Below, piece after piece: positions 3,163-29,576 of a stretch of DNA of 64,000 nucleotides (position 1 is the first letter of the stretch; the number at the start of each line of letters is the position of its first letter). The stretch comes from Cedecea davisae DSM 4568 (GTDB lineage Bacteria > Pseudomonadota > Gammaproteobacteria > Enterobacterales > Enterobacteriaceae). The notes beneath the pieces are model-generated. The model was not told where the DNA came from. It saw only the letters and a program-made list of their open reading frames with translations, and did no database searches. The stretch spans positions 344,014-408,013 of the forward strand of contig NZ_KE161030.1 in NCBI RefSeq assembly GCF_000412335.2, in the 5' to 3' direction. Position numbers and translations under genes: made by a program.

Positions 3163-4275
3163 TTACAGCGCCTTTTGCCATACGGACTGCGGCAGCAGAT
3201 AGACGGCTTTTTCTGCCTGCTGGCCGTCGGTCACGATGTGTTTGATGCCGCTCGCCATCACCGCCAGGGTCACGTCAAATGCGTTGAGGCTGTCGCCGAA
3301 TCCGGCGGTCAGGTTCAGCATCGAGCCGTTCGCCATCAGGTACAGCGTTTTGCCGTTCAGCTGATAGGCGTTGATAAACGGCATCACTTCTTCGTTCGGG
3401 AATTGTTGCAGGTAGCCGCAGTCGATCTCTTCGGCAACGTGGCCGACGTTGAGGATGAATACGCCGTCTTTTGCCTTATCCAGCACCGCAGCGCTAACCA
3501 CTTTCTTCGCGCCTGTAGCGGTTGCCACTACGTCAGTTGTGGAAATAACATCTTGAATATCAACTACGTGCCAGCCATCGTAAGCGGCCTGCAGGCGGCG
3601 AGCCGGATCGAGTTCTGCCACCATGACCTGGCCACCGTAGGCTTTGGCAGCCGCGGCAACGCCCTGGCCCACCAGGCCATAACCGATAACCAGAACGCGT
3701 TTTTCATGCAGCGTCAGGTGAGTGGTCTGGAAGAAGGTTTGCCATGCGGTGAGGCCAACCATGTGGCGGTTGTGCAGGCCTTCTTTAACCGGGAGATCGT
3801 CCCAGTTGAAGATTGGGTAGCCCGGGCGCAGGTCGGCAAGGCGGTTAACCCCGGAGCCGGTGGCTTCCAGGCAGGCCACAACATCGCCAAATTCGCCGCG
3901 CTGGTGCAGCAAAGTGGTGATGTCGGCACCCATTTCGCAAAGATGCGTCGGGCGCCAGGCGATGGCTTTTTCCCAGGAATCGCGCCAGTCGGCATCGCTC
4001 ATATTACGCCACGCGCTGGCTTCGGCTCCGGCGGCGACCAGATAAGCCACCACGTCATCCTGCACGGTGGTTGGGTTGCAGGTGGTGAGGAATATTTTGG
4101 CGTTTTTCTTCAGCAGGCCTTCCACCAGAGGGATCATCTTCAGGTCGAGATGCATATTGCAGGCGAGGCGGACGTGGCTTAAGTCAGGCAGCGCTTCAAC
4201 CTGCTTCAGGGTGCGAACCATATGGCGACGGGACCACTCAATCTCTTTGATAAACATCTCGTTCTGGGCGTTCAC
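3163..4275 (-). CDS. S-adenosylhomocysteine hydrolase-like NAD-binding protein (short, divergent)
   Basis: 370 residues, clearly of the AhcY fold but about 60-100 residues shorter than true SAH hydrolases. Substrate-domain landmarks are His42 (NMHLDLKM), Asp118 (EMGADITTLLH) and Glu138 (CLEATGSGVNRL). In the segment equivalent to K-S-K-F-D-N of the enzyme it has VKEGLHN: Lys164 and Asn169 are kept, but the catalytic Asp is His168. The nucleotide site is VLVIGYGLVGQG (GYGDVG in typical enzymes). The C-terminal K-P-x-H-Y-R-Y arm that completes the neighbour's NAD site is absent. Enterobacteria normally clear SAH by Pfs/LuxS, so activity on SAH should not be assumed. Single gene with its own terminator. 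Fold call strong, function open. Confidence 0.78.
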   Translation of the reverse strand: MNAQNEMFIKEIEWSRRHMVRTLKQVEALPDLSHVRLACNMHLDLKMIPLVEGLLKKNAKIFLTTCNPTTVQDDVVAYLVAAGAEASAWRNMSDADWRDSWEKAIAWRPTHLCEMGADITTLLHQRGEFGDVVACLEATGSGVNRLADLRPGYPIFNWDDLPVKEGLHNRHMVGLTAWQTFFQTTHLTLHEKRVLVIGYGLVGQGVAAAAKAYGGQVMVAELDPARRLQAAYDGWHVVDIQDVISTTDVVATATGAKKVVSAAVLDKAKDGVFILNVGHVAEEIDCGYLQQFPNEEVMPFINAYQLNGKTLYLMANGSMLNLTAGFGDSLNAFDVTLAVMASGIKHIVTDGQQAEKAVYLLPQSVWQKAL

Positions 4276-15098: not shown

Positions 15099-16334
15099 AT
15101 GACTCAAACGCGTAACAAATTGCTCCGTTTTAACCCAGCCTCTCCCGACTTCCACGCTAATCTCTACGCAGTGTACAGCAATATGCGTGGCGAGCAGCCG
15201 CTGGTTCGCCTCGGCAGGACGTGGATACTTACGCGTTATCATGACATTGCTAACGTTTTAAAGAATCGATCTTTTATTAGCTCAGGCATTCCGGAACAAC
15301 TGCATAACGAACTGCGTCGTCTGGGTTTTGAGCTTTCTCCCGCCTTGCGCGCTTTTCTCTTCGGGATTGTACTTTTTGAGGATGGCGAACGACATGCCTC
15401 TCACCGTTTGGCGCTGCAGGCATTATTCAAGGGCGAAGCCTGGAATGAAGTGAGTGAGATGATTACCCGGCAGGCTCAAAAGCTGGCAACTCACGCCGCC
15501 GCTGGGCGGCATTTTGATGGCATCCGCGATTTTGCTGCACCGCTCTGGAGGCAGGTATTTACCCGTTGGCTTAATCTACCGCCGGAGCTGCAGGAGATTG
15601 TTGAGCGGGAAAATACCTCGATTCGTTTATTGCTCGATCCCAGCGCAATTGATGACGCTGGACTGAAACAGCTTATGCAGGCGATGAGCCAACTGGATAA
15701 AGGTTTTAATCAGCTGCTGGAGGCCCATTTAGCGGGTTATGACTCGTTGTTTTTCCGCTCGCTGGTGAAAGGCTATGATGGCGACCTGGCAACGTTGCAA
15801 CAGAGATTCAGTACGGACTGTATCACTATGCTGATAGGTGGCAGTGAAACCAGCGAGGCATTGACGGGAAACCTGCTATTGATGCTGGCGCAGCGCACTG
15901 AGCTACAGAAAGGGGTGCAAAGTGGCTCGCTACGAATGCGCGACATTGTGACCGAAACAATGCGCTTTGAATCTCCGCTGCAAATGGTGCGCCGCAAAGT
16001 TCAGTCTCCGACAGAGATCCACGGCAGGGAATTGCGACCGGGCGATAATTTACTGTTGTGCCTGGGCTCAGCTAACCGCGATGAGTCCGTTTTTGAAGAT
16101 GCTGCCAGTTTCAACCCCGGCAGGAAAAACGCTCAGCGTCAGCTTGGATTTGGCATCGGTATGCATCAGTGCATAGGCCAACTCCTGGCGCAGTTTCAGG
16201 CTGAGCAAATGGCCACGGCATTGTTTACTCAGGGCAGATTGGCGCAGTCGGGTGAGGCTAACTGGTCGCAGCGAAGTCTTATCCTTCGTTCTCTCGACGA
16301 GCTTCCCCTGCATTTTGTTAGCTTCAACGAATAG
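15099..16334 (+). CDS. Cytochrome P450
   Basis: 411 residues, the length of soluble bacterial class I P450s. I-helix oxygen-binding motif GGSETS (247-252), K-helix E286-T-M-R289, and the haem loop FGIGMHQCIG with axial ligand Cys358. An N-terminal HxxH-like pair (ERHASHR) fits the C-helix. There is no membrane anchor and no fused reductase, so it needs a ferredoxin and reductase from elsewhere; none is encoded nearby. P450 genes are uncommon in Enterobacteriaceae, so the gene is probably acquired. It may hydroxylate a small hydrophobic or specialised metabolite. Flanked by a terminator and yoaC, not in an obvious operon. Confidence 0.92.
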   Translation: MTQTRNKLLRFNPASPDFHANLYAVYSNMRGEQPLVRLGRTWILTRYHDIANVLKNRSFISSGIPEQLHNELRRLGFELSPALRAFLFGIVLFEDGERHASHRLALQALFKGEAWNEVSEMITRQAQKLATHAAAGRHFDGIRDFAAPLWRQVFTRWLNLPPELQEIVERENTSIRLLLDPSAIDDAGLKQLMQAMSQLDKGFNQLLEAHLAGYDSLFFRSLVKGYDGDLATLQQRFSTDCITMLIGGSETSEALTGNLLLMLAQRTELQKGVQSGSLRMRDIVTETMRFESPLQMVRRKVQSPTEIHGRELRPGDNLLLCLGSANRDESVFEDAASFNPGRKNAQRQLGFGIGMHQCIGQLLAQFQAEQMATALFTQGRLAQSGEANWSQRSLILRSLDELPLHFVSFNE

Positions 16335-16798: not shown

Positions 16799-16828
16799 AA
16801 GGGCCGACGATAGCGTCAGCCCTTTTTG
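16799..16828. terminator. Bidirectional terminator between yoaC and the MFS gene
   Basis: Hairpin GGGC-C-GACG / CGTC-A-GCCC with loop ATAG, followed by TTTTTG on the + strand and by TTAGTTTTTC on the - strand. It serves the two convergent units. Confidence 0.82.
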
Positions 16829-16871: not shown

Positions 16872-18257
16872 TCAGCGATGCAGGCGCAGCATACTGGCAA
16901 GAGACGATATTGCCGCTATGGCGCAGGCCATCCCAAACACATATACGGCAAATTGAACGCCCGCGTCCCCCGTTAAGCCATTCAACAACGCAATGATCAT
17001 CGCAACCAGCGCGGCACCAATAGATTGCCCTGCCGTTCTGGCCGTTGACAGTACTCCGGAGGCCGTTACCGTCCGATTTGCTGTGACATTTAAAAACATT
17101 TCTTTATTGTTTGGCGGCAGGAAGAGACCATAGCCAATCCCGCAAACCGCCACGCGCCACAGAAAATCATTCACCGTCGCGGCATCCGGCAATAGCGTCA
17201 GTGAGCCCAGGCCGAGGCTAAATATCACCACGCCAACGGTGGATATCTGGGTCGGATTGAAACGGTTCGACAACTTCCCTGCAAGCGGCGCGCAGAACGC
17301 CACAGCTAGCGGCCATGGGGTAAAGATGAATGCTGATTCCAGCACAGAGTAGTGATAAGTATGCTGTAGCACAAAGGGTAACCCCACCAGCGCCATCCCC
17401 TGTGCAACGAACATAGAGACAGAAGAGAGCACCGCGAAGGTATATTGCCTGGAACGAAATATATCCAGCGGCAACAGAGGGTTATTCGAACTCATCTGGG
17501 CTTTTATAAAGACGGCGAAGAGCACCACAGACGCAACGCCGCAAAATAGTAGAGTACGACTTTCCCAGCGCCCGATTTGATCGACGGCAATAACCATCAG
17601 ACCTAATGCAGCAGCGGAACAAATCGCCCCTCCCCAGTCGAATCCCTTCTCTTTTTCGGTATCCATACCCAATGAGATCAGCGAAAAGACAATGGCCAGC
17701 CCTCCCAGCGGAATGTTGATATAAAACAGCCAGGGCCAGGACAGGTAAGAAATTATCAGGCCGCCCAGCGCAGGGCCTATGGCCGTGCCTACCGCAAATG
17801 CCAGCGCATTCAGTCCAAATATCGTCCCCAGCGCGGCGGGGGGAAAGATAACCCGGTAAAGCCCCAGCCCAACGCTTATCATGACCGCATAGCTCACCCC
17901 CTGAAGTACCCTCATGAAAACCAGTACGCCAAAGGTCGGAGAGAGGCTACAGCCCAGAGAAGACAGCGTAAACAGCACCATCCCTATCGTGTAAAAGCGC
18001 CGCTCCCCTATCCTGGTGCCGAGCGAAGCACAAATCAGCATTGTTGCTGCGCTCGCCACCTGATAGCCGTTGGTCACCCAGATACTGGAGGCCGAATCTA
18101 CCTGTAATGCATTAGCAATGGAGGGTAAGGCGATATTGACAATAGAGCTGTCCAGCGCTGCCATCAAAACGCCTATCAAGATGGCCGCCGCTGCCAGATA
18201 GCGCCTCGGCGTTTCAAAGCCTTGTTCTAAGGTGTGACTACTGCTTACCAACGACAT
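16872..18257 (-). CDS. MFS transporter, DHA2 (EmrB/QacA-like) family
   Basis: 461 residues, hydrophobic, with the DHA2 hallmark LDSSIVNIALPSIANAL in the first helix (motif D1), WVTNGYQVASAATM in the next, and GTRIGERRFY in the loop between helices 2 and 3. Helix 5 carries the antiporter motif-C-like GTAIGPALGG. It is a proton-driven exporter family acting on drugs or metabolites. It is the last gene of the PrpD/GAPDH-like/kinase-like operon, 27 nt after the kinase-like gene, so it most likely exports the product of that pathway or protects against it. Uptake cannot be excluded. Confidence 0.9.
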   Translation of the reverse strand: MSLVSSSHTLEQGFETPRRYLAAAAILIGVLMAALDSSIVNIALPSIANALQVDSASSIWVTNGYQVASAATMLICASLGTRIGERRFYTIGMVLFTLSSLGCSLSPTFGVLVFMRVLQGVSYAVMISVGLGLYRVIFPPAALGTIFGLNALAFAVGTAIGPALGGLIISYLSWPWLFYINIPLGGLAIVFSLISLGMDTEKEKGFDWGGAICSAAALGLMVIAVDQIGRWESRTLLFCGVASVVLFAVFIKAQMSSNNPLLPLDIFRSRQYTFAVLSSVSMFVAQGMALVGLPFVLQHTYHYSVLESAFIFTPWPLAVAFCAPLAGKLSNRFNPTQISTVGVVIFSLGLGSLTLLPDAATVNDFLWRVAVCGIGYGLFLPPNNKEMFLNVTANRTVTASGVLSTARTAGQSIGAALVAMIIALLNGLTGDAGVQFAVYVFGMACAIAAISSLASMLRLHR

Positions 18258-18284
18258 ATCCTCAGGTCCTTTATTGGGATGAAA

Positions 18285-19265
18285 TTATGCGCAAAGACTT
18301 TCGCTCTCAACGCCCGCGCCTTCGAGATAAGCCAGCATGCCCAGCATCAGCACCTCTTCAGGCCGTGCTATCACAGGAGAACGCGGTGCTTTCCAGTCCT
18401 GTTTGCTCCCGTTGATACGAATACTTCTCAGGAAACAGTAGGTTGTGAGAACATAAAATCGATTACGCATATCTTCGCCCATCAGCGGCAGCAGGCCGGA
18501 AATGCCTCCTATTTCCGGGATTTCATTCAGGATATTGCCGTAGTCTTGTTTCGCCAGAACGAACATAAGCGCGTCTGACATCGGTACGATTTTTACCGAG
18601 TCTTCAACTTCGGCTGCCAGTTCATGCCAAAACGAAAAGGCAAACCGGGAGAATCCAAAAAGCGGATCGAGGCCTCGTACAGAAAAATCGGGATCAATGA
18701 AGCTGGTCTGGGATCGCTCCTCGTTATAGAGCACGTTGCCAAAATGGAAATTGAAGTGAGCTTTTTCCACCGAACGGAATTTCTCGCTACGGGCCATTTC
18801 CATTGATTTTTCAAAGACCTCCATGGCCGTGATGCCGAAGCGAGCGCCGTTAAGCAAAACCGGTTTATCAAACAGTTCGTGGGCAAAACGCGTGCCTTCC
18901 CATTCCTCCAGTAATCTGGCCGGCATATCGTTCGCCAGCGGACACTGGCTGCTTATCTCCAGGCTGACTGCTTTTTGGATGTTTTCCAGCGCATGCAGGA
19001 TAATTTCTCTTCTCTCACCCAGAGACCGCCGTTCATCAAACACAATGCTGGAGAGCGGAAGGGCGTTTTTCTTTTCAAGAACGTAGAACTGCCGACCGGC
19101 GGCCAGGCCATCGTGCAGAACCGGAACCATCAGCTCCGGGTAGATTTCGTGTAAGGTGCGTATCTGCTCGACCTCAGCCTTCAGCTTTGCATTAAACGCT
19201 GCCGAAGTGGCCGTCTTCACGACAAAGCCAGAACTCAAAAAATCAACGGTATGTGAATGGGTCAT
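18285..19265 (-). CDS. Aminoglycoside-phosphotransferase/kinase-fold protein with altered catalytic loop
   Basis: 326 residues. The N-lobe has VVKTATSAAF with a candidate ATP-site Lys17 and helix-C Glu31. The catalytic loop reads AHFNFHFGNVL (170-180) where APH/choline-kinase-like enzymes have H-G-D-x-H-x-x-N: His170, His174 and Asn177 align, but the catalytic Asp is Asn172. The metal-binding segment SFIDPDFSVRGLDPLFGFSRF (Asp191, Asp193) is kept. The start overlaps the end of the GAPDH-like gene by four bases (ATGA), showing coupled translation. It is either a kinase using a changed catalytic residue or a pseudokinase. Its substrate should belong to the same operon pathway. Confidence 0.7.
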   Translation of the reverse strand: MTHSHTVDFLSSGFVVKTATSAAFNAKLKAEVEQIRTLHEIYPELMVPVLHDGLAAGRQFYVLEKKNALPLSSIVFDERRSLGERREIILHALENIQKAVSLEISSQCPLANDMPARLLEEWEGTRFAHELFDKPVLLNGARFGITAMEVFEKSMEMARSEKFRSVEKAHFNFHFGNVLYNEERSQTSFIDPDFSVRGLDPLFGFSRFAFSFWHELAAEVEDSVKIVPMSDALMFVLAKQDYGNILNEIPEIGGISGLLPLMGEDMRNRFYVLTTYCFLRSIRINGSKQDWKAPRSPVIARPEEVLMLGMLAYLEGAGVESESLCA

Positions 19266-20404
19266 TTTTCAATCCCCGGGAAAGTGGCAACGGGCTGTCC
19301 CAGCGCGATATTGCGCGCTACGGAACGGACAACAGCGGTGTAACCCACCGTATTATTAACAAACGACTGGATGATAACTTCGCTGAGATTCTGGTTTGCC
19401 AGATACGCCGGGCGAAGGATCAACAAATGGTTAGTGTCCGAGAGAATGGTTGAGCATCGCTGTTCGTAAGCATAAGCACGCCCGCCTAACGGCGTCCGTG
19501 AGGCCTGGACAATATAAGGATGTGCTTTGTTCACCCGCTCAATTGCCGCCTCAATAAGATTGGTGCTTAACGCACCATTATCTTTAACGATAAAGCGATT
19601 TATCTGATAACCCGGGGCATGAACCGGTGCACGTAACGATACGGTATTCACCAGTGATGCCCAGGGCATTACTTTTTTCTGGCTCATGGCAATTTGGGAA
19701 AAGCTGGGACGGAGATTGTCGCGGGCGTCCTGCATTCGCCCTTCAAACGAGCGTGTGCCCAGCACGCCGTTGGGGGTGTCGGGATGCACAATATCGGTTT
19801 CAACCGCCACAATATGTGAAGCGTTACAATTAATAGCGCTCAGCGCGTCGCTTAAGACTCGCAATGAAGCATGCATACCATTCGTCTGGCAGGAGCCCAG
19901 GCAGAACATGCCAGAGTTAACGACCTGGCGCTGTATCGTACTGATATCGCCTTCAGTCAGGCTGCCCAGACAGCCGTAAATAGCAGGCAGGCTATCGGCC
20001 TCCGCAACGCCCAGGACTACGTCTGCCAGCTCTAACATATTGCGTGCTACAGGGCTGTTGAGATCCATATCCTGCTTGCTGGTCGCTATAAAACCAATAT
20101 CGAATCGTCCCTCGACTGGTGGGCACTCTTTGGCTAAATCGCCAAAGAAAAAGCCAATTTCACGACCATTAATTTGCAGGGCGTTGCTGCTGATAATGTT
20201 GATCCGGGATTGTATGCCGGGCTGAGCCATCGCCAGACGTGCAACAATGCCGTCTATTGGGCGGAGTTCAGGATAGTGTTTATCTACAGCAGGGGGATTC
20301 GTCACGACCATCTGGATCGCGAAACCATCCTGCTGCGGATCATTCTGAATCAACAGGTTTGCGCCAATCTCTGCACCACAGCCTACCAGTATTGCCTTTT
20401 TCAT
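19262..20404 (-). CDS. Glyceraldehyde-3-phosphate-dehydrogenase-like protein
   Basis: 380 residues. An N-terminal Rossmann start (AILVGCGAEIGANLL) and a central LGSCQTNGMHASLRVL that mirrors the SNASCTTN active-site helix of GAPDH, with candidate nucleophile Cys172. The segment RDNLRPSFSQIAM, VSLRAPVHAPGYQINRF resembles the R-x-x-x-x-x-I-I-P and AFRVPTPN region of the GAPDH catalytic domain. The His that activates the Cys is not clearly in place. GAPDH-fold relatives (Asd, ArgC) reduce acyl-phosphates to aldehydes, so this may do the same or oxidise an aldehyde. It is second in the operon, coupled to the kinase-like gene. It is not the glycolytic enzyme. Confidence 0.65.
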   Translation of the reverse strand: MKKAILVGCGAEIGANLLIQNDPQQDGFAIQMVVTNPPAVDKHYPELRPIDGIVARLAMAQPGIQSRINIISSNALQINGREIGFFFGDLAKECPPVEGRFDIGFIATSKQDMDLNSPVARNMLELADVVLGVAEADSLPAIYGCLGSLTEGDISTIQRQVVNSGMFCLGSCQTNGMHASLRVLSDALSAINCNASHIVAVETDIVHPDTPNGVLGTRSFEGRMQDARDNLRPSFSQIAMSQKKVMPWASLVNTVSLRAPVHAPGYQINRFIVKDNGALSTNLIEAAIERVNKAHPYIVQASRTPLGGRAYAYEQRCSTILSDTNHLLILRPAYLANQNLSEVIIQSFVNNTVGYTAVVRSVARNIALGQPVATFPGIEK

Positions 20405-20450
20405 TTTAATTACCTCTAATGATATGAATTATTTAAATTTTTTATAATTC

Positions 20451-21878
20451 TTAATCTAAGGAAAGCATTTTCAGGAAGTCAGTAACGGGCATAGCATCCA
20501 GCTTCGTGCCTGAAGTCAGGATGTCGGCCAGGCTCTGTGCCCTGTCTCGTAGCGGGCTATCGGAAAGATTCAGATGGAATTTCGTCAGAAGTGCGTCGAA
20601 ACATTCTTCACGGCGGCTAACATGACCGAGCGGATACTCGATGAGTGCCGAGATCTCCTCCGCCATCCCATGACACTTTATGTAGAGTGCGTTAGGGATC
20701 GCGCGCTTTTCCGGGTCGTAGTAGCTTTCGGTAAATGAAGGACGTTCAGTACAGGTAATTTTCTGGCGTAGTGCTTCCAGTTGGGGATCAGAGGCGAGAG
20801 GTTCGTGAAAATCTTTAATGGTCAGATTTCCGGTTTGAAGCCCTACTGCAATCATGTATTGAAGGCAGTGATCGCGATCCGCAGAGTTAGTCAGCACGCC
20901 AGACTTATCAATGATTTGAATCGCAGGTCGCGTCGTTTCTACGCGCACATATTCAATGCTTTCAGGGGAGAACCCATCAGATAGCATCCGCTCACGAAGG
21001 CAAATAGCCGCCTCCACTGCCGTTTGAGCATGATATTCAGCCGGATTGGGGACTTTAAACAGGATGTTCCTGATGACAAAGTCAGACAGGTTACGCGTCA
21101 GGTTGAGCGGCTGGCCTCTAAGCACGGCATCATCAAACCCCCAGCGACTGGCCGTGAGCGCCGTTGGGTATCCCATCTCACCGGTTTGTGCAAAAAGAGC
21201 CAGCTGCAGGCCGCGTGCCGTTGCGTCACCGGCGGCCCATGATTTACGTGTTCCCGCATTTGGTGCATGTCGGTAGGTTCTGAGAGAATGGCCATCGATA
21301 ATGGCATTGGACAGCGCGCTGAGCGCCTGGTCTTTTGATAATCCCAGAATTTGGGCGGCAGCGATGGCAGAGGCCACTTTAACCAGCACGACGTGGTCAA
21401 TGCCCAGAGCATTAAAGCAGTTCGACAGGCACAGCACGCCATGAATTTCATAAGCGCGAATCATCGTGTTCAGTACGGCTGACATACTGACAGCTGACTG
21501 AGTGCTATCGGAGAGGCTACGCCATGCCGCAGCCGCCAGAATCGCCCCCAGGTTATCGGATGGATGCCCCCATTCTTGCGCAAGCCATGTATCGTTGAAC
21601 TCAAGCCAGCGGATCATCGAACCCATCTGAAAAGCTGCTTCAATCGGGCCTAAACGTAGTGGGGTGCCCACTACAGGTACACCCTCGCTGTTTTTACTGA
21701 ATTGCACACTGCGCATGAGCCTGGAGCAGTCGTCGTCAGTGGAGGCAGCGATCGCACAGCCTATCGAATCCAGCAGGCAAAAACGTGCCAGGTGGAGTGT
21801 CTCATTGTCAAAGGTTGCTTGCTGATAAGCATAGTCAACCAGCTCGATCATTATTTTATCAAACTCAGCGTGCGCCAT
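20451..21878 (-). CDS. MmgE/PrpD-family protein
   Basis: 475 residues, full length for the family. N-terminal helical domain with LARFCLLDSIGCAIAAS, the EAAFQMGSMIRWLEFND and WGHPSDNLGAILAAA segments that line the PrpD active site, then HSLRTYRHAPNAGTRKSWAAGDATARGLQLA. Characterised members include 2-methylcitrate dehydratase, cis-aconitate decarboxylase and iminodisuccinate epimerase, so it may dehydrate, decarboxylate or epimerise a carboxylic acid. No prpB, prpC or acn genes are near, which argues against methylcitrate metabolism. It is the first gene of the four-gene operon, divergent from a LysR regulator. Confidence 0.82.
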   Translation of the reverse strand: MAHAEFDKIMIELVDYAYQQATFDNETLHLARFCLLDSIGCAIAASTDDDCSRLMRSVQFSKNSEGVPVVGTPLRLGPIEAAFQMGSMIRWLEFNDTWLAQEWGHPSDNLGAILAAAAWRSLSDSTQSAVSMSAVLNTMIRAYEIHGVLCLSNCFNALGIDHVVLVKVASAIAAAQILGLSKDQALSALSNAIIDGHSLRTYRHAPNAGTRKSWAAGDATARGLQLALFAQTGEMGYPTALTASRWGFDDAVLRGQPLNLTRNLSDFVIRNILFKVPNPAEYHAQTAVEAAICLRERMLSDGFSPESIEYVRVETTRPAIQIIDKSGVLTNSADRDHCLQYMIAVGLQTGNLTIKDFHEPLASDPQLEALRQKITCTERPSFTESYYDPEKRAIPNALYIKCHGMAEEISALIEYPLGHVSRREECFDALLTKFHLNLSDSPLRDRAQSLADILTSGTKLDAMPVTDFLKMLSLD

Positions 21879-22268
21879 GTTTTATCCCATAAACGAAAAG
21901 AAGTTTTCACCAATACAAGTTATGAAGGCCCGGGAAGGTATACATTTGCATATAGTTAAATAACCAATTGATTTTTAAGATAATGAACGAGCCCTGCCGA
22001 TAAAATCGTAATGGGCATGAGAATGAAAAACCAGCGAATAAAATCGAGGTACTCATCGAAAAGATTGATACCTGTGCCATATCAGGCGAGCACGACGGGT
22101 TAGAATGAAGCATAAAGGAGGGCGGGTTGTTACTGAGGAGGGTCTGGAGGATGCCTTGCAGCCATTAGCCTGGCTTATGTTAATGGTCATAAACAGAGTG
22201 ACAAATGGTTTTTAACAAATTATAAATATTGTTGAAACATTGAACTAACTTTTAGCATGAGGTCTCAA
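21879..22268. promoter_or_regulatory. Divergent intergenic region of the PrpD operon and its LysR regulator
   Basis: 390 bases between divergent start codons. No convincing gene. The part next to the LysR gene (22160-22260) is AT-rich and probably holds both promoters. In LysR systems the operator lies here as a T-N11-A dyad; several candidates exist and none stands out. Confidence 0.45.
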
Positions 22269-23156
22269 ATGAAGCTAAGTGAACTTCTTGCGTTCGTGAC
22301 AGTCGTGGAGACAGGGAACATAACCCAAGCCGCAGAGCGCCTGAATCGAGTGCAATCCAGTATTTCCCATCGAATACGAAGCCTGGAAGATAACCTTGAT
22401 GTAATCTTGTTTGATAGAAAAAATGATGGATGCTCACCCACAGCGCAAGGCCAGATACTTTATGATTACGCACTTAAAATTCTGAATCTTGCGGATGATT
22501 GCAAAAACAATATTTCCTACTCTAAAACTAATCAGATAACCATCAGGGTGGGAATAATTGAATGCTTACCCCCTTATATTATTAGTTCGTTGATTGATTT
22601 AGGGCAGGATCTGGGCTGGAATATCGATATATCCATCGGGAATACAATCAGCTTGCTGAGCGCCTTTGATAAAAATGAGTTTGATGCGGTCATCATTGGC
22701 GCTGGATTTTCCAACGCACAACATACACGTTCCATATTACTTTCCAGCGAGCTGGTGATTATTACTGAGAAAAATCGCCCCTCTATTACCGATATATCCA
22801 GCCTGGATGGTGAGGTTTTTTTGCTCAGCAGTAAAAAATGTGCAACCTCAACCCGCAATTTCAATGTGCTCTTCAGCGAAGGCAATATCACACCCAAACG
22901 TGTAGTGGAGTGTGGTTCCTACCCTGTGCTGTTTTCAAGTATTGCCGCCGGTAAAGGCGTCTCGCTGGTGTTACGTTGTTCGATCAGTAGCGAAGTAAAG
23001 AGCAAGATAGAAATCCATCCGCTATCCGGTCAGTTCAATGATTTCAACATAGAACTGGTATATCGCCCGGATTGCCCCTATCTGGATTGTGCAAAGTTTG
23101 CCGGTATGATGACTTCCGTCTTCCAGGATCCGCGCCTGCGCGACATCGGCTATTAA
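22269..23156 (+). CDS. LysR-family transcriptional regulator
   Basis: 295 residues from the ATG at 22269, which has GAGG six bases upstream; an ATG 12 nt earlier lacks one. Winged helix in residues 1-60 (LLAFVTVVETGNITQAAERL, SSISHRIRSLEDNL), then a periplasmic-binding-protein-like effector domain. It is AT-rich compared with the flanking core genes. It is divergent from the PrpD/GAPDH-like/kinase-like/MFS operon, the classic arrangement of a LysR activator with its target, so it likely switches that operon on in response to a pathway intermediate. Confidence 0.88.
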   Translation: MKLSELLAFVTVVETGNITQAAERLNRVQSSISHRIRSLEDNLDVILFDRKNDGCSPTAQGQILYDYALKILNLADDCKNNISYSKTNQITIRVGIIECLPPYIISSLIDLGQDLGWNIDISIGNTISLLSAFDKNEFDAVIIGAGFSNAQHTRSILLSSELVIITEKNRPSITDISSLDGEVFLLSSKKCATSTRNFNVLFSEGNITPKRVVECGSYPVLFSSIAAGKGVSLVLRCSISSEVKSKIEIHPLSGQFNDFNIELVYRPDCPYLDCAKFAGMMTSVFQDPRLRDIGY

Positions 23157-23413: not shown

Positions 23414-24628
23414 TTACGAAGACTCACGCAGAGCGACCAGCGTTTTTGCTCTGAACTTCGCCATAATTATTTTCATCATTGGGACTTCAAAATACTTGTA
23501 TAAAAAAGAAGCACAAGAGATTGTCAGAATGAGCGCTACGACGATAAGCCCGACTCCCTCCATTAAGTCGAACTTCTTTCCTGCGGTTAAATTCAAAAAA
23601 TAAAAAAGCACTAAAAAATGTATCATATAGAATGCATAGGATATCTCGCCTAACCAAACCGATGTTTTATGGTTTAAAACGGTTTTTTTGTTACCTAAGT
23701 CGTCACCGGCAAAGGCGGTAATTAATAAACAAACGGGAATGATAAATACGACACTCATACTGAATTGGTATGGAACATACATGGCTCCAACATACGTTGC
23801 GGCAAGTAAGGTAAACGCCGCTGGTTTCGTGAGCATGATTGCTCGCCCATTTATCAGCAAGCGTGCAGCAAACATACCTGCGAGGAATTCAAATATGCGC
23901 GCTGGCGGGAAAATATACGAAATCCAAAAGTGATGCTGAGAGATAGGAAATGCTCCCATCATTTTGTTTGGCTCAACCCACAGATAAATAAACATTTGAA
24001 CCAGAAAGGATGCTACGGTGACGGTAAATAATCCCGCTAAGTCGTATTTTTCAGGTATGGATTTCATCACTTTAAAAAGAAGCGGGAAAGAGAGATAAAA
24101 CATCGCTTCTATACACAGAGACCAGCTGGGTCTGTTCGCTACGAAAAAGTAGCGAACATCATCAAACCAGGTATTCACCAGCAGAAGGTTTGACGACCAC
24201 AGCTTGTACTGATAAATACTCACTGCGCCAACAACGAATGCTATCGCCCAGGTCAGAAAATGAGTGGGGTATATCTTAGCAAAGCGCCGCAGGTAAAAAT
24301 CACCCACGCTATCGCTATCCTTTGCAGACCACACCATTATAAAACCACTTAAGATAAAGAAGTATGAAACCCCTAACCATCCAGCCTTACCCACAATAAC
24401 CGTATAAACATGCTGGATTGTAGGGTCTGAAAATGGAGCAAGATCGCTGGGCAGCGAAGCATGAAATAAAAAAACTAAAAAGGCGGCCCAGAATCTACTT
24501 CCGGTAATCGAAGGTAGTTTGGGCCGTACCGTTAATTTCCCTTCCGCCATTGGTTGTCTCACTAATGTTTCATTAACTTCGCCATAAATAGCATCAGCAT
24601 TTACTTTGTTGGTCATTGAAGAATTCAT
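23414..24628 (-). CDS. Acyltransferase family 3 (OafA/YrhL-like) membrane protein
   Basis: 404 residues from ATG 24628, preceded by GGGGTG; an upstream ATG has no ribosome site. After a 40-residue polar N-terminus there are about ten membrane helices. Family-3 landmarks are SGSRFWAAFLVFLFHASL-like (here ITGSRFWAAFLVFLFHA with the conserved His), FFILSGFIMVWS, and NRPSWSLCIEAMFYLSFP. Such proteins transfer acetyl or other acyl groups to surface sugars, peptidoglycan or secreted metabolites. It is AT-rich, lies in the accessory region, and is separated by 188 nt from the hydrolase operon on the same strand. Its acceptor is unknown. Confidence 0.85.
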   Translation of the reverse strand: MNSSMTNKVNADAIYGEVNETLVRQPMAEGKLTVRPKLPSITGSRFWAAFLVFLFHASLPSDLAPFSDPTIQHVYTVIVGKAGWLGVSYFFILSGFIMVWSAKDSDSVGDFYLRRFAKIYPTHFLTWAIAFVVGAVSIYQYKLWSSNLLLVNTWFDDVRYFFVANRPSWSLCIEAMFYLSFPLLFKVMKSIPEKYDLAGLFTVTVASFLVQMFIYLWVEPNKMMGAFPISQHHFWISYIFPPARIFEFLAGMFAARLLINGRAIMLTKPAAFTLLAATYVGAMYVPYQFSMSVVFIIPVCLLITAFAGDDLGNKKTVLNHKTSVWLGEISYAFYMIHFLVLFYFLNLTAGKKFDLMEGVGLIVVALILTISCASFLYKYFEVPMMKIIMAKFRAKTLVALRESS

Positions 24629-24816
24629 CACACACCCCATATATGGTATTTTTATATCAATAATTTATTCTGAAATAGAATCATAGTTACAGACAGAAAA
24701 ATTAATAATGGCAAAGCAATGTAATCCAGGATTCACATGGATCCTGTTTATTAAAATAATAATGACGGCCAGGGAAATTACTTTGTGGAATGGCACATTT
24801 ACCTTATCGTTTTTGA

Positions 24817-25653
24817 TTAGTCAGCATCGACGATTTCATATCCTGATTTCTGTTTTTCTATATAGCCAAATCCTTGTGATCCAAAATGCATCCCGCCGAC
24901 AAGAATCCGGTCAGAACTGACCATCGCAAGGATGCGTGTTCGTGTCTCCGCCGCTGCCTGCGGGTCATGATCGAAGGCTATCGATACTTCTGGTTTTAAC
25001 AATTGGATATGTGGAAAATGAACAATATCTCCCCAAATCAACAAACTTCCTTTGCTGCCTTCAACTCTATATCCCATATGGCCCGGGGTATGGCCTTTTA
25101 ATGGGATAGCAAATATGCCGGGGAAAATCTCACCTTCATCAATTAACCGGAGATTGCCCTGATACTCTTTAAAGGCACTCCGCGCTAAAAGAAAGTTACC
25201 TTTTACGCGGTCGGTGACGGCAGCAAAATTTTTATCGTCTTGTATATAATTAAACTCATCAGCGCTTATGACTAACTCCGCGTGAGGAAATGCAGCTTTT
25301 CCCTGTGAATTTATTAGCCCACCAATATGGTCAGGGTGAGTGTGTGTAAGAAGAACTGCATTAATATCTCCTGGTTTTAGCCCAAGTTTTGCAAGATTAT
25401 CAACCAGAGCGCCACCCCAACCTTTAATACCGCCTGCGCCACTATCGATTAGAATGTTTTTTCCCTTCTTCTGTACCAGGAAGGTATTAATATGAACGGC
25501 GTTATGTTCACTTATGCAGGCATTCTCCTGGATTTTTTTGCACTCGGCTTCATCAACATTAGCAAGCAGCCCGAAATCAACCTGGAGGTAGCCATCGCTT
25601 AATGCGGTAACAGAGATATCACCAAGATCTTTCAATGGAAGTTGTTCACTCAT
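24817..25653 (-). CDS. Metallo-beta-lactamase-fold hydrolase
   Basis: 278 residues. Metal ligands are visible: His104, His106, Asp108 and His109 in THTHPDHIGG, His188 in KGHTPGH, Asp209 in IWGDIVH and a late His256 in GGMHFG. It therefore can hold a two-metal site. The arrangement is shared by glyoxalase II, lactonases and other hydrolases; it is probably not a drug lactamase. No signal peptide, so cytoplasmic. Last gene of the alpha/beta-hydrolase / cyclophilin / tautomerase operon, 10 nt after the tautomerase gene. Confidence 0.85.
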   Translation of the reverse strand: MSEQLPLKDLGDISVTALSDGYLQVDFGLLANVDEAECKKIQENACISEHNAVHINTFLVQKKGKNILIDSGAGGIKGWGGALVDNLAKLGLKPGDINAVLLTHTHPDHIGGLINSQGKAAFPHAELVISADEFNYIQDDKNFAAVTDRVKGNFLLARSAFKEYQGNLRLIDEGEIFPGIFAIPLKGHTPGHMGYRVEGSKGSLLIWGDIVHFPHIQLLKPEVSIAFDHDPQAAAETRTRILAMVSSDRILVGGMHFGSQGFGYIEKQKSGYEIVDAD

Positions 25654-25663
25654 AATCTATCCT

Positions 25664-25990
25664 TCAATTTATTGCGTAAATATCATTGGCTTCATAAAGA
25701 AAACAGCGAACTCTCGCTACAACGCCGATCTTCTCTTTAATTAACAAATCAACCTGATGCAAAAACTCATTCATCACCGGCCCGGTACGGAAAATCTCTT
25801 GCCTGAGTTTTGCCTCTAAATAAACGGGTGTTCCAAAACTTATGTCGCATGTCACATAGCTGATATGAATATTATTTTCTTTTGCTTTTAGTATACCCAT
25901 GGCCAGGTTTGCTAAAGAGTCAGAGAATTCAGACAAAGAAACCGCATCCATACGATGTTTTGCGGAGGTATATACGGTAATGCTTGGCAT
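25664..25990 (-). CDS. Tautomerase-superfamily-like small protein
   Basis: 108 residues. It begins MPSITVYTS, giving the N-terminal proline that is the general base of 4-oxalocrotonate tautomerase-type enzymes. The rest could fold as two beta-alpha-beta units (LSEFSDSLANLAMGIL, EFLHQVDLLIKEKIG). A second-domain motif cannot be identified, so the call is moderate. It lies between the cyclophilin and the metallo-hydrolase genes. With an enol-lactonase-like hydrolase in the same operon, a ring-cleavage or keto-enol step is plausible. Confidence 0.55.
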   Translation of the reverse strand: MPSITVYTSAKHRMDAVSLSEFSDSLANLAMGILKAKENNIHISYVTCDISFGTPVYLEAKLRQEIFRTGPVMNEFLHQVDLLIKEKIGVVARVRCFLYEANDIYAIN

Positions 25991-26031
25991 TTGATATTAG
26001 CTCCTGCGAGTGGTTATTTTAAATATAGTGA

Positions 26032-26595
26032 TTACACAACCCCGGCTGTGACTAATCGCATTCTTTTTATGACGTCTGGATTCACGACAGTCCCCATCTC
26101 AGCATCACCCCGACTGAGCTGCTCAATGAGCTCCATACCTGCTGTTACTTTGCCGAACGCGGTATAATTCTGATCTAAAAAGTGTGTTCTGGCGGAAGTG
26201 ATAAAAAATTGGTGACAGGCGCTATGCGGATTTCTCGATCTCGCCATCCCGATGGTGCCTCGTTCAAACGGCATGTGATTAAATTCCGCGGCCAGTTTAG
26301 GCAATGTTAAGCTATCCAATCTCGTATTTTTTACCGGATCCCCGGTTTGTGCCATAAAACCATCAATAACGCGGGAGAAAGGTACGCCATCATAAAACTT
26401 CGACTGCACCAGCATTTTTATACGCGCAACATGATTGGGGGCCAGGTCTGAAAATAACTGGATAGTGGCAGTCCCACTCCCCAGCTCCATTTCAATAATA
26501 TCTCCCTGAACGTTTAACCATCTTAACGCGGCGGGAACCGCGACAGCACTTGCACATAAGCCCAGGCACCCGCCTATAAATAACCGACGATTCAT
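26032..26595 (-). CDS. Exported cyclophilin-type peptidyl-prolyl isomerase
   Basis: 187 residues from ATG 26595 with TGGAG upstream. The N-terminus MNRRLFIGGCLGLCASAVAV is a signal sequence with adjacent arginines, possibly a Tat substrate. The cyclophilin core has FSRVIDGFMAQTGDP with the active-site Arg and Gln, SACHQFFITSA and YTAFGKVTAG. It catalyses cis-trans isomerisation of prolyl bonds, presumably in the periplasm. Its presence inside a small-molecule hydrolase operon is unusual. Gaps of 85 nt and 41 nt to its neighbours suggest co-transcription. Confidence 0.85.
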   Translation of the reverse strand: MNRRLFIGGCLGLCASAVAVPAALRWLNVQGDIIEMELGSGTATIQLFSDLAPNHVARIKMLVQSKFYDGVPFSRVIDGFMAQTGDPVKNTRLDSLTLPKLAAEFNHMPFERGTIGMARSRNPHSACHQFFITSARTHFLDQNYTAFGKVTAGMELIEQLSRGDAEMGTVVNPDVIKRMRLVTAGVV

Positions 26596-26680
26596 ATCAT
26601 GACTCCATTCCCACAATTAGGTTCACCACCTATTTGCTCATTAATAACGCCCATGCGTACCCTGTTGGTATCGGCGGGCA

Positions 26681-27463
26681 TTAATGTGTATTGGCCTTAT
26701 CGATAAACGATATGATTTCATCTGTGAGCGCATCTGGTCGCTCAAAATTCGGCAAATGAGAAGCACCGGGTATGATATGCAGTTCTGCATTGCGTTTTTT
26801 CGCCAGGCGTTGGGCGTAGTCTTGCGGCGTCAGCTTGTCTTCCGCTCCCCGGACGACAACCGCTTTGACGCCGGGGATCTGCATATCTGTCAAATCCGTA
26901 TCGGCAATCGCTAAAGAGCAGCCCGCGAAAGCTTCGACCGTGGTACGGCGCAGCATCTGCCTGAGACCATCCGCCTCGGGCGAGTCGATAAATGCCGGCG
27001 TAACCCAGTTGCTGATAATCCCCCTCTCAAGGTGCTCAAGACCATGCTGGAAGACATCTTCCGCCCTGGCCCGCCACAGGGAAGGAGGGGCGGCATTCAC
27101 CAGTGAGGTATCGATGATAACCATGCCCTGGACTCGTTCAGGTAACTTGAATCCAATCCATTGCGCTATCGTGCCGCCTATCGAAACGCCGGCAACATAA
27201 AATTTATCGATTTTCAGGTGATCCACTACGGCGATAACATCATCGGCCAGGTCAGACATTGAAAACGGCTGCGCATCAACCGCGCTTAGCCCATGCCCTC
27301 GAATATCCAGCCTGACCACACGATAGCGCTCGGTTAATCGTGGAATTTGCAAATCCCACAAATGCAAATCTGTTCCCAAAGAATGAAGAAGTATCAATGT
27401 CGTAGCCTCTTCAGGCCCCTCTACATCGACATGCTGAGTTAACTTAAGCGGTCGGATAAACAT
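26681..27463 (-). CDS. Alpha/beta-hydrolase (3-oxoadipate enol-lactonase-like)
   Basis: 260 residues. Catalytic triad: Ser94 in the nucleophile elbow GVSIGG, Asp209 in RGAEDKLTP, His236 in PGASHLPNFERP. The oxyanion region is LLHSLGTD. Overall pattern (DIRGHGLS, LADDVIAVVDHL) resembles PcaD, which opens enol-lactones in aromatic degradation, but similar sequences act on many esters and lactones. It is the first gene of a four-gene operon with cyclophilin, tautomerase-like and metallo-hydrolase genes. No pca neighbours are present, so the protocatechuate pathway is not supported. Confidence 0.85.
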   Translation of the reverse strand: MFIRPLKLTQHVDVEGPEEATTLILLHSLGTDLHLWDLQIPRLTERYRVVRLDIRGHGLSAVDAQPFSMSDLADDVIAVVDHLKIDKFYVAGVSIGGTIAQWIGFKLPERVQGMVIIDTSLVNAAPPSLWRARAEDVFQHGLEHLERGIISNWVTPAFIDSPEADGLRQMLRRTTVEAFAGCSLAIADTDLTDMQIPGVKAVVVRGAEDKLTPQDYAQRLAKKRNAELHIIPGASHLPNFERPDALTDEIISFIDKANTH

Positions 27464-28141: not shown

Positions 28142-28663
28142 ATGGCTTTACAAGGAAAGTTCATCCTGAATGGTGCCGATTACGCCCCATTTAGTCTATG
28201 TGGCGTAGGTACTTTTTTAGCTTTTTCTGGTAATGGAGCCTACCGCAATAAGGGAGCATGCGGCGGTATAAAAGGTGATGGCCCGCTTCCCCCTGGTAAA
28301 TATTGGATTGTTGAACGAGGTAATGGCGGTTTCTTCTCTGGCGTTAAAGCTGGAGTACAGGATTCATGGAACAAGCTCCGATGGGGCGCTACCTTTGGAC
28401 GGGACGAATGGTTCGCTCTGTACAGGGATGACTGGGGGATTGATGATGGTACTTGGATCAACAATGTGCACAGGGGGTTATTCAGGCTTCACCCAGGACA
28501 CATTTCGGAAGGTTGCATAACGATTCCGCATAACTCTGATTACGCTCTTATCCACAATGCGTTGATGAATTCACCCCGAATGCAGGTTCCTTGCATGAAA
28601 TCTCTTATGGCCCGTGGTTGGGTGGAGGTGGTCGCTAATGGCATTACCAACACTTGCCCGTAA
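28142..28663 (+). CDS. Type VI secretion peptidoglycan-targeting effector, DUF2778/Tlde1-like
   Basis: 173 residues. Begins MALQGKFILNGADYAPF, then GPLPPGKYWIVERG and the catalytic box LHPGHISEGCITI with His117 and Cys125, the His/S-x-G-C arrangement of the L,D-transpeptidase-like DUF2778 family. Salmonella Tlde1 of this type attacks or edits the peptidoglycan tetrapeptide in the target periplasm. No signal peptide is present, as expected for delivery by T6SS. The last 26 bases overlap the following small membrane-protein gene, and hcp comes next, so delivery with the Hcp tube is likely. Confidence 0.85.
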   Translation: MALQGKFILNGADYAPFSLCGVGTFLAFSGNGAYRNKGACGGIKGDGPLPPGKYWIVERGNGGFFSGVKAGVQDSWNKLRWGATFGRDEWFALYRDDWGIDDGTWINNVHRGLFRLHPGHISEGCITIPHNSDYALIHNALMNSPRMQVPCMKSLMARGWVEVVANGITNTCP

Positions 28664-28905: not shown

Positions 28906-29391
28906 ATGCCTATTCCAGCTTATATGTGGCTTAAAGACGATGGCGGCGCGGATATTAAAGGTTCTGTAGATGTTCAGGATCGGGAAGGCAGTATTGAAGT
29001 TGTTGGATTTAGTCACGGGTTGAATACCCCTGTTGATAGCTCTGGCGGCAAAATAACCGGCAAACGCTCGCACTCCCCGATGATGCTCGAAAAGGAGTTT
29101 GATAGTTCCAGCCCTTATCTCTACAAAGCCGTAGCGACAGGTCAGACACTGAAAAGCGCCGAAATCCGTTGGTATCGCATTAATTATGCAGGGCAGGAGG
29201 AATGTTATTTTGTAATGACTATTGAAGGAGTGAAGATAACGGGGGTTAACCCGGGTATGCCAAACGCTAAGATGTCAGGCAATGCGCAGATCAACCATAT
29301 GGAGTCTGTATCTTTGATGTACGACAAAATTACATGGCGATACGTTGATGGCAATGTGCAGTATACGGACGACTGGAATGTCAGAACTTAA
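28906..29391 (+). CDS. hcp: Hcp, type VI secretion tube protein
   Basis: 161 residues, the usual length. Starts MPIPAYMWLKDDGGADIKGS, continues with SIEVVGFSHGLNTPVDSSGGKITGKRSHSPMMLEKEFD and ends with the WRYVDGNVQYTDDW segment typical of enterobacterial Hcp. It forms the hexameric rings of the T6SS inner tube and can chaperone small effectors in its lumen. A strong AAGGAG lies upstream. No other T6SS structural gene (tssB, tssC, vgrG, clpV) is in the window, so this is an orphan hcp-effector module served by a machine elsewhere. Confidence 0.93.
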   Translation: MPIPAYMWLKDDGGADIKGSVDVQDREGSIEVVGFSHGLNTPVDSSGGKITGKRSHSPMMLEKEFDSSSPYLYKAVATGQTLKSAEIRWYRINYAGQEECYFVMTIEGVKITGVNPGMPNAKMSGNAQINHMESVSLMYDKITWRYVDGNVQYTDDWNVRT

Positions 29392-29500: not shown

Positions 29501-29576
29501 TGGTGGCCCCTGCTGGACTTGAACCAGCGACCAAGCGATTATGAGTCGCCTGCTCTAACCACTGAGCTAAGGGGCC
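29501..29576 (-). tRNA. ileX: tRNA-Ile2 (anticodon CAT, lysidine-modified), CCA encoded
   Basis: 76 nt on the minus strand, starting GGCCCCTTAGCTCAG and ending GCAGGGGCCACCA. The anticodon loop is CTCATAA. The sequence matches my memory of E. coli ileX, which reads AUA codons after TilS converts C34 to lysidine. Its 3' end points at the accessory region to the left, and mug and rpoD follow on the other side as in E. coli. Confidence 0.93.

Follow-up and report, generated by a model that had tools for sequence, protein, structure and literature searches.

Cedecea davisae DSM 4568 carries an operon that encodes a PrpD-family protein, a relative of glyceraldehyde-3-phosphate dehydrogenase (GAPDH), a kinase-like protein and a transporter of the major facilitator superfamily (MFS), with a gene for a LysR-type regulator diverging from it. 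The window analysed here is a stretch of 64,000 nucleotides (nt) of contig NZ_KE161030.1, and positions without a locus label refer to it. The operon belongs to a rare cluster family, which is present whole or in part in few distantly related proteobacteria. We tentatively read it, at somewhat less than an even chance, as a horizontally spread biosynthesis-and-export cluster, for which a scheme with an acyl phosphate as intermediate is predicted. The core of the cluster consists of the following genes.

16872-18257 (-): DHA2/EmrB-type MFS transporter, presumed exporter (TIGR00711)
18285-19265 (-): kinase-like protein of the aminoglycoside phosphotransferase (APH) fold, HxN replacing HxD
19262-20404 (-): divergent GAPDH-superfamily protein, Cys172 within SCQTN
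20451-21878 (-): PrpD, 2-methylcitrate-dehydratase-like (NF006943 and TIGR02330)
22257-23156 (+): LysR-type regulator, divergent from prpD (PF00126 and PF03466)

The operon with its divergent regulator is real. Open reading frame coordinates give gaps of 46, -4 and 27 nt among the four same-strand genes, the same values as in the initial annotation of the window, and the family assignments made there for PrpD, the DHA2 MFS protein and LysR are borne out by Pfam and NCBIfam matches. The MFS protein reaches 247.3 bits with the NCBIfam model TIGR00711 for DHA2 EmrB efflux proteins (cut-off 230.2).

A single contig scan with the GAPDH-like protein as query, which reaches close relatives only, yielded ten related loci (L003-L012) from 45 candidate stretches, with 55-89% identity. 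The carriers are Xenorhabdus, Kosakonia, Serratia, two Rahnella, Erwinia (L007), Marinomonas, a Telmatospirillum metagenome-assembled genome (MAG), Pseudomonas and Microvirga (L012). The prpD and kinase-like genes flank the GAPDH-like gene in identical order in all ten, and the MFS gene is present in nine with the order unchanged; no MFS homologue was found within the 12.2 kb stretch of Microvirga. Since the same order recurs in every locus picked by the GAPDH-like protein alone, the linkage is not due to chance, and the concern that the four families might rarely occur together is answered. A LysR orthologue is present in six loci, divergently adjacent in five (L003-L006 and L009) and at another place in Erwinia; in L008, the sequence available stops before this position could be seen.

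The initial annotation was right on the linkage of four genes and LysR and too narrow on the size of the unit, as the Enterobacterales loci carry ten genes rather than five. The additional genes of the window are as follows.

23414-24640 (-): acyltransferase-3 membrane protein (PF01757), also in L003-L007 and L010
24817-25653 (-): AidB-like hydrolase of the metallo-beta-lactamase fold (PF00753)
25664-25990 (-): 108-residue protein with Pro following Met, probably tautomerase-like
26032-26616 (-): cyclophilin-type peptidyl-prolyl isomerase (PF00160, 127.5 bits) with an N-terminal signal-like segment as judged by eye
26681-27463 (-): PcaD-like alpha/beta hydrolase (TIGR02427, below cut-off)

Counterparts of this five-gene block (23414-27463) occur in L003-L007 and also, in a different arrangement, in L010, an alphaproteobacterial locus, i.e. 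in six of the nine loci that can be judged (all except L008); they are missing from the stretches fetched for Marinomonas, Pseudomonas and Microvirga (L009, L011 and L012). The AidB-like hydrolase scores 212.1 bits with NF047979 (AidB N-acyl homoserine lactonase; cut-off 360), and its residues H104, H106, D108 and H109 are invariant in 7/7 sequences. The PcaD-like hydrolase scores 216.8 bits with TIGR02427 (3-oxoadipate enol-lactonase PcaD; cut-off 255.85), and Ser94 within its GVSIGG motif is likewise invariant in the seven aligned. The 108-residue protein has no Pfam or PDB match and an invariant Pro2 (7/7). Cyclophilin counterparts were aligned in L003-L007, and the one in L010 has 46% identity. 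A further genome, G021, which has no match to the GAPDH-like protein, retains a remnant at a single place (L047:7458-10334). It consists of genes for the metallo-hydrolase (72%) and LysR (83%), fragments of PcaD (38 residues) and of the kinase (28 residues), and the gene for the 108-residue protein, which is broken by an in-frame stop; this pattern of decay suggests that the two halves of the cluster arrived there together.

The cluster is under purifying selection. Across six of the ten loci (L003-L008), the ratio of nonsynonymous to synonymous divergence (dN/dS) was 0.033-0.159 in 50 of 54 gene-by-locus comparisons, the other four not being computable because of saturated dS. Only the Xenorhabdus values are firm, as dS exceeded 1 in all 40 computed comparisons outside that genus. 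Against Xenorhabdus, the ten cluster genes have dS of 0.52-0.72 (PcaD being partial there), whereas tsaD, the only yardstick used, is saturated (proportion of synonymous differences, pS, 0.864); transfer between the two lineages is therefore indicated. No such contrast was seen against Kosakonia, Serratia, Rahnella or Erwinia. The tsaD gene of the host, which lies in an rpoD-dnaG-tsaD context, has 94% identity to records named E. coli, in keeping with a member of the Enterobacteriaceae. The cluster has probably moved horizontally between lineages. Carriage as phage or plasmid cargo was rejected, with no phage record, one plasmid relative (32% identity) and no relative encoded in any of 22 candidate stretches from viral contigs.

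Searches of six genome sets returned relatives in 1/98, 1/369, 3/246, 1/398, 1/385 and 1/398 genomes, all of them already known; these counts are lower bounds from overlapping sets drawn from larger groups, with fewer than 2000 genomes covered in all. As the initial annotation had supposed, no description of such a cluster was found in the open-licence literature. In the portions available, PMC11350110 has no mention of kinase, dehydratase, dehydrogenase, MFS, PrpD or phosphotransferase, PMC7744662 contains just one short-chain dehydrogenase among the relevant terms, and PMC7858074 names a dehydratase in its reference list only.

Two variant surroundings were observed. In the plasmid cluster, from Pantoea alhagi (L013:4632-12337), the distant GAPDH-like relative is encoded between genes for Sua5-like and phosphoenolpyruvate-utilising-domain proteins. 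Genes for an EamA transporter, a LysR protein, a tautomerase and a hydrolase of the PcaD type (40%) lie close by; homologues of PrpD, the kinase-like protein and the MFS protein were undetected within 21 kb. In Microvirga, an amidinotransferase-like gene (L012:384-1523) lies directly upstream of prpD on the same strand. Its product matches the inosamine-phosphate amidinotransferase 1bwd (gene name StrB) with an E-value of 1.3e-134. Weaker matches are SxtG, arginine:glycine amidinotransferase and HsvA, and no Pfam or NCBIfam model matched at the thresholds applied.

The first enzyme of the operon, described initially as a generic PrpD-family member, does belong to that family and is more specifically 2-methylcitrate-dehydratase-like. 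It exceeds the cut-offs of two NCBIfam equivalog models (NF006943, 584.7 against 575 bits; TIGR02330, 514.4 against 458 bits), a set that includes the bifunctional methylcitrate dehydratase/aconitate hydratase model. It resembles the PrpD of the methylcitrate cycle in its 47% identity to the Escherichia coli protein and in long stretches identical to 1szq. In a tree of 21 sequences, however, E. coli PrpD falls outside a clade (99/99) that unites 10 of the 11 operon PrpDs; the Microvirga protein is unplaced and the grouping of all 11 is supported at 72/32 only. The protein is the sole MmgE/PrpD member in the host, as are its counterparts in four of the nine other carriers searched. The Telmatospirillum MAG was left out of these genome searches and of those for PrpB and PrpC.

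The initial annotation had noted that no methylcitrate genes lie nearby; in the whole host genome, the best PrpB-model match (75.5 bits, cut-off 354.4) and the best TIGR01800 match (334.4, cut-off 421.3) are below cut-off and far from the window. The PrpB and PrpC models stayed below cut-off in seven of the ten genomes searched, i.e. the host, Kosakonia, Serratia, both Rahnella, Erwinia and Microvirga, the last having PrpB-like proteins of 302 and 293 bits (cut-off 354). A methylcitrate-cycle role in the host was therefore rejected, and methylcitrate synthase is not expected to supply the substrate in most carriers. Activity as a cis-aconitate decarboxylase was also rejected, with 484 bits to methylcitrate dehydratase against 54 to the decarboxylase branch. 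Citrate-type acids are the natural guess for the substrate. In this respect the cluster recalls those for fungal itaconate, which, according to the available parts of two sources, share a citrate-cycle acid as start, a PrpD-family enzyme (Aspergillus terreus CadA) and, in the Ustilago maydis cluster, an MFS exporter (PMC4720413), as well as a lactone derivative, 2-hydroxyparaconate (PMC9875883). The PrpD studied here belongs, in contrast, to the dehydratase branch and not to that of the decarboxylases. The term kinase does not occur in the available part of PMC9875883, the one of the two sources in which it was looked for.

Structure prediction, proposed initially as a check, gave the GAPDH fold (about 300 residues) for the second protein and an APH-type kinase fold for the third. 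The GAPDH-like protein matched no Pfam or NCBIfam family at E ≤ 1 and no PDB chain in either a phmmer search (E ≤ 1) or a profile search (E ≤ 10). Among the fold matches listed, the best are GAPDH and erythrose-4-phosphate dehydrogenase, with 12-19% identity; Asd and ArgC, which the initial annotation had named as relatives, are not among the matches listed, and this does not exclude them. Its Cys172, invariant in 11/11 and aligned with GapA Cys150, lies in an SCxTN motif as in GAPDH, and its C-terminal NNTVGY is akin to DNETGY of GapA. The kinase-like protein shares the fold and ATP-site-type residues with aminoglycoside phosphotransferases and maltokinases, and differs from them in lying below the PF01636 cut-off and in having HxN for HxD. 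The Asn172 concerned is invariant in 11/11 and aligned to the Asp of ThiK and SrkA. Phosphorylation of a carboxylate needs no catalytic base because the group is already an anion, and the missing base would fit such a substrate.

Taken together, these features suggest the following route. PrpD would dehydrate or hydrate a tricarboxylate of the citrate type, which may be citrate, cis-aconitate, isocitrate or a related acid, and the HxN kinase would phosphorylate a carboxylate to give an acyl phosphate. This would be loaded on Cys172 of the GAPDH-like enzyme and reduced with NAD(P)H to an aldehyde, and the resulting aldehyde-acid may close into a lactol or lactone. The tautomerase-like protein, the PcaD-like and AidB-like hydrolases and the acyltransferase may tailor or detoxify this product, which the MFS protein would export. 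The initial proposal of a kinase and GAPDH-like reductase acting on a PrpD product, with MFS export, thus survives in outline as the best reading, with a chance a little under even that its putative substrate, product and direction are right. The more specific version, in which an APH-fold carboxylate kinase without catalytic base and a new GAPDH-superfamily clade together form a two-enzyme reductase for carboxylic acids, with a citrate-cycle acid as substrate and an undescribed exported lactone or aldehyde-acid as the eventual product, is possible and on balance doubtful.

Several observations weigh against this route. The kinase-like protein scores 14.7 bits with the Pfam APH model (PF01636; cut-off 23.2), E. 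coli YcbJ has HxN in the same alignment, and HxN also fits a pseudokinase. In the GAPDH-like protein, His207 is invariant in 11/11 and lies just past a strand, yet MAFFT places GapA Gly188 opposite it and not the catalytic His; the structural model is least sure around this residue, with a predicted local distance difference test (pLDDT) score below 50 at 208-241 and 249-263. An hhalign comparison of the family with GapA gave a probability of 2.1% and an E-value of 0.023, which is not significant alone. Three carriers, Xenorhabdus, Marinomonas and Pseudomonas, encode PrpB and PrpC that score above cut-off, at sites away from the cluster, and the start of the Microvirga kinase-like gene is uncertain, the chosen one giving a 67 nt gap and no overlap. 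The core does not depend on the lactone part, as the five extra genes are missing from the sequence retrieved around it in Marinomonas, Pseudomonas and Microvirga.

The pathway may instead run in reverse for catabolism or detoxification, which we consider unlikely. The hydrolases and the tautomerase-like protein would open an environmental (enol-)lactone and the GAPDH-like enzyme would form an acyl phosphate by oxidising an aldehyde; ATP recovery or regulation would be the task of the kinase-like protein, PrpD would feed the acid to the tricarboxylic acid cycle and the MFS protein would transport the substrate. Hydrolases of the PcaD and AidB types, both present here, are typical of breakdown, GAPDH itself works oxidatively, and LysR control is compatible with both directions. 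However, the MFS protein belongs to the EmrB efflux subfamily, the amidinotransferase upstream in Microvirga is of a biosynthetic type, the extra genes are missing from three of nine informative loci, and none of the ten cluster genes encodes a coenzyme A ligase, a beta-oxidation enzyme or a ring-cleavage enzyme.

It is quite unlikely that the phosphate acceptor of the kinase-like protein is an alcohol or amino-cyclitol-like group and that the GAPDH-like protein acts on a phosphorylated aldehyde, as do glyceraldehyde-3-phosphate and erythrose-4-phosphate dehydrogenases, the very proteins that it resembles in fold: the catalytic Asp that phosphorylation of a hydroxyl would call for is replaced by Asn in 11/11, and the fold matches include PDB entries of an engineered D189N form of the phosphotransferase Cph001, in which D189 is presumably the catalytic Asp. 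Self-protection against a citrate-cycle inhibitor, with PrpD standing in for aconitase without an iron-sulphur cluster and the kinase-like protein acting as a pseudokinase or resistance factor, would agree with the bifunctional model matched by PrpD, the drug-type exporter and the HxN motif, but it is very improbable, given that the GAPDH-like protein has diverged too far from GapA to serve as its resistant copy and that its constant partnership would be left unexplained.

Under the biosynthetic reading, LysR would act at a conserved block upstream of prpD; the non-coding features are as follows.

22036-22062 (-): conserved block containing TCGATGANTNCCTCGAT, upstream of prpD, a candidate operator for LysR
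16799-16824 (-): terminator-like hairpin 3' of the MFS gene, 11 pairs, 7 G-C

The block is found in the window and L003-L007, i.e. in all six Enterobacterales loci whose stretch reaches its position (L008 is too short), and it remains beside prpD in Erwinia although lysR is located elsewhere. An exact match to the TCGATGANTNCCTCGAT pattern is lacking in L009-L012 and in L047. Terminator-like sites (14, against a shuffled mean of 12.1 with standard deviation 3.7) and promoter hits (13, against a mean of 18.7) were at shuffle level in the region, and therefore only the conservation of the block was used.

Other genes of the window were also noted. A cytochrome P450 gene lies beside the cluster at 15099-16334 (+); it was rejected as a member, since none of L003-L012 contains a homologue at E ≤ 1e-5. 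Genes for a Tlde1-domain protein (28142-28663, +), which from the name we take to be of a type VI secretion effector family, and for an Hcp/TssD tube protein (28906-29391, +) adjoin tRNA-Met(cat) at 29501-29576. An S-adenosylhomocysteine-hydrolase-like protein (3163-4275, -), above Pfam and below NCBIfam cut-offs, is encoded close to genes for a sigma-70-type factor and a cytochrome b561.

If the proposed route is true, a small mobile cluster of ten genes makes an exported citrate-cycle metabolite without a polyketide synthase or a nonribosomal peptide synthetase, and genome mining keyed to those enzymes would probably miss it. It would also add two new types of enzyme, a kinase of the APH fold that lacks the Asp of HxD and a branch of the GAPDH superfamily outside the models searched.

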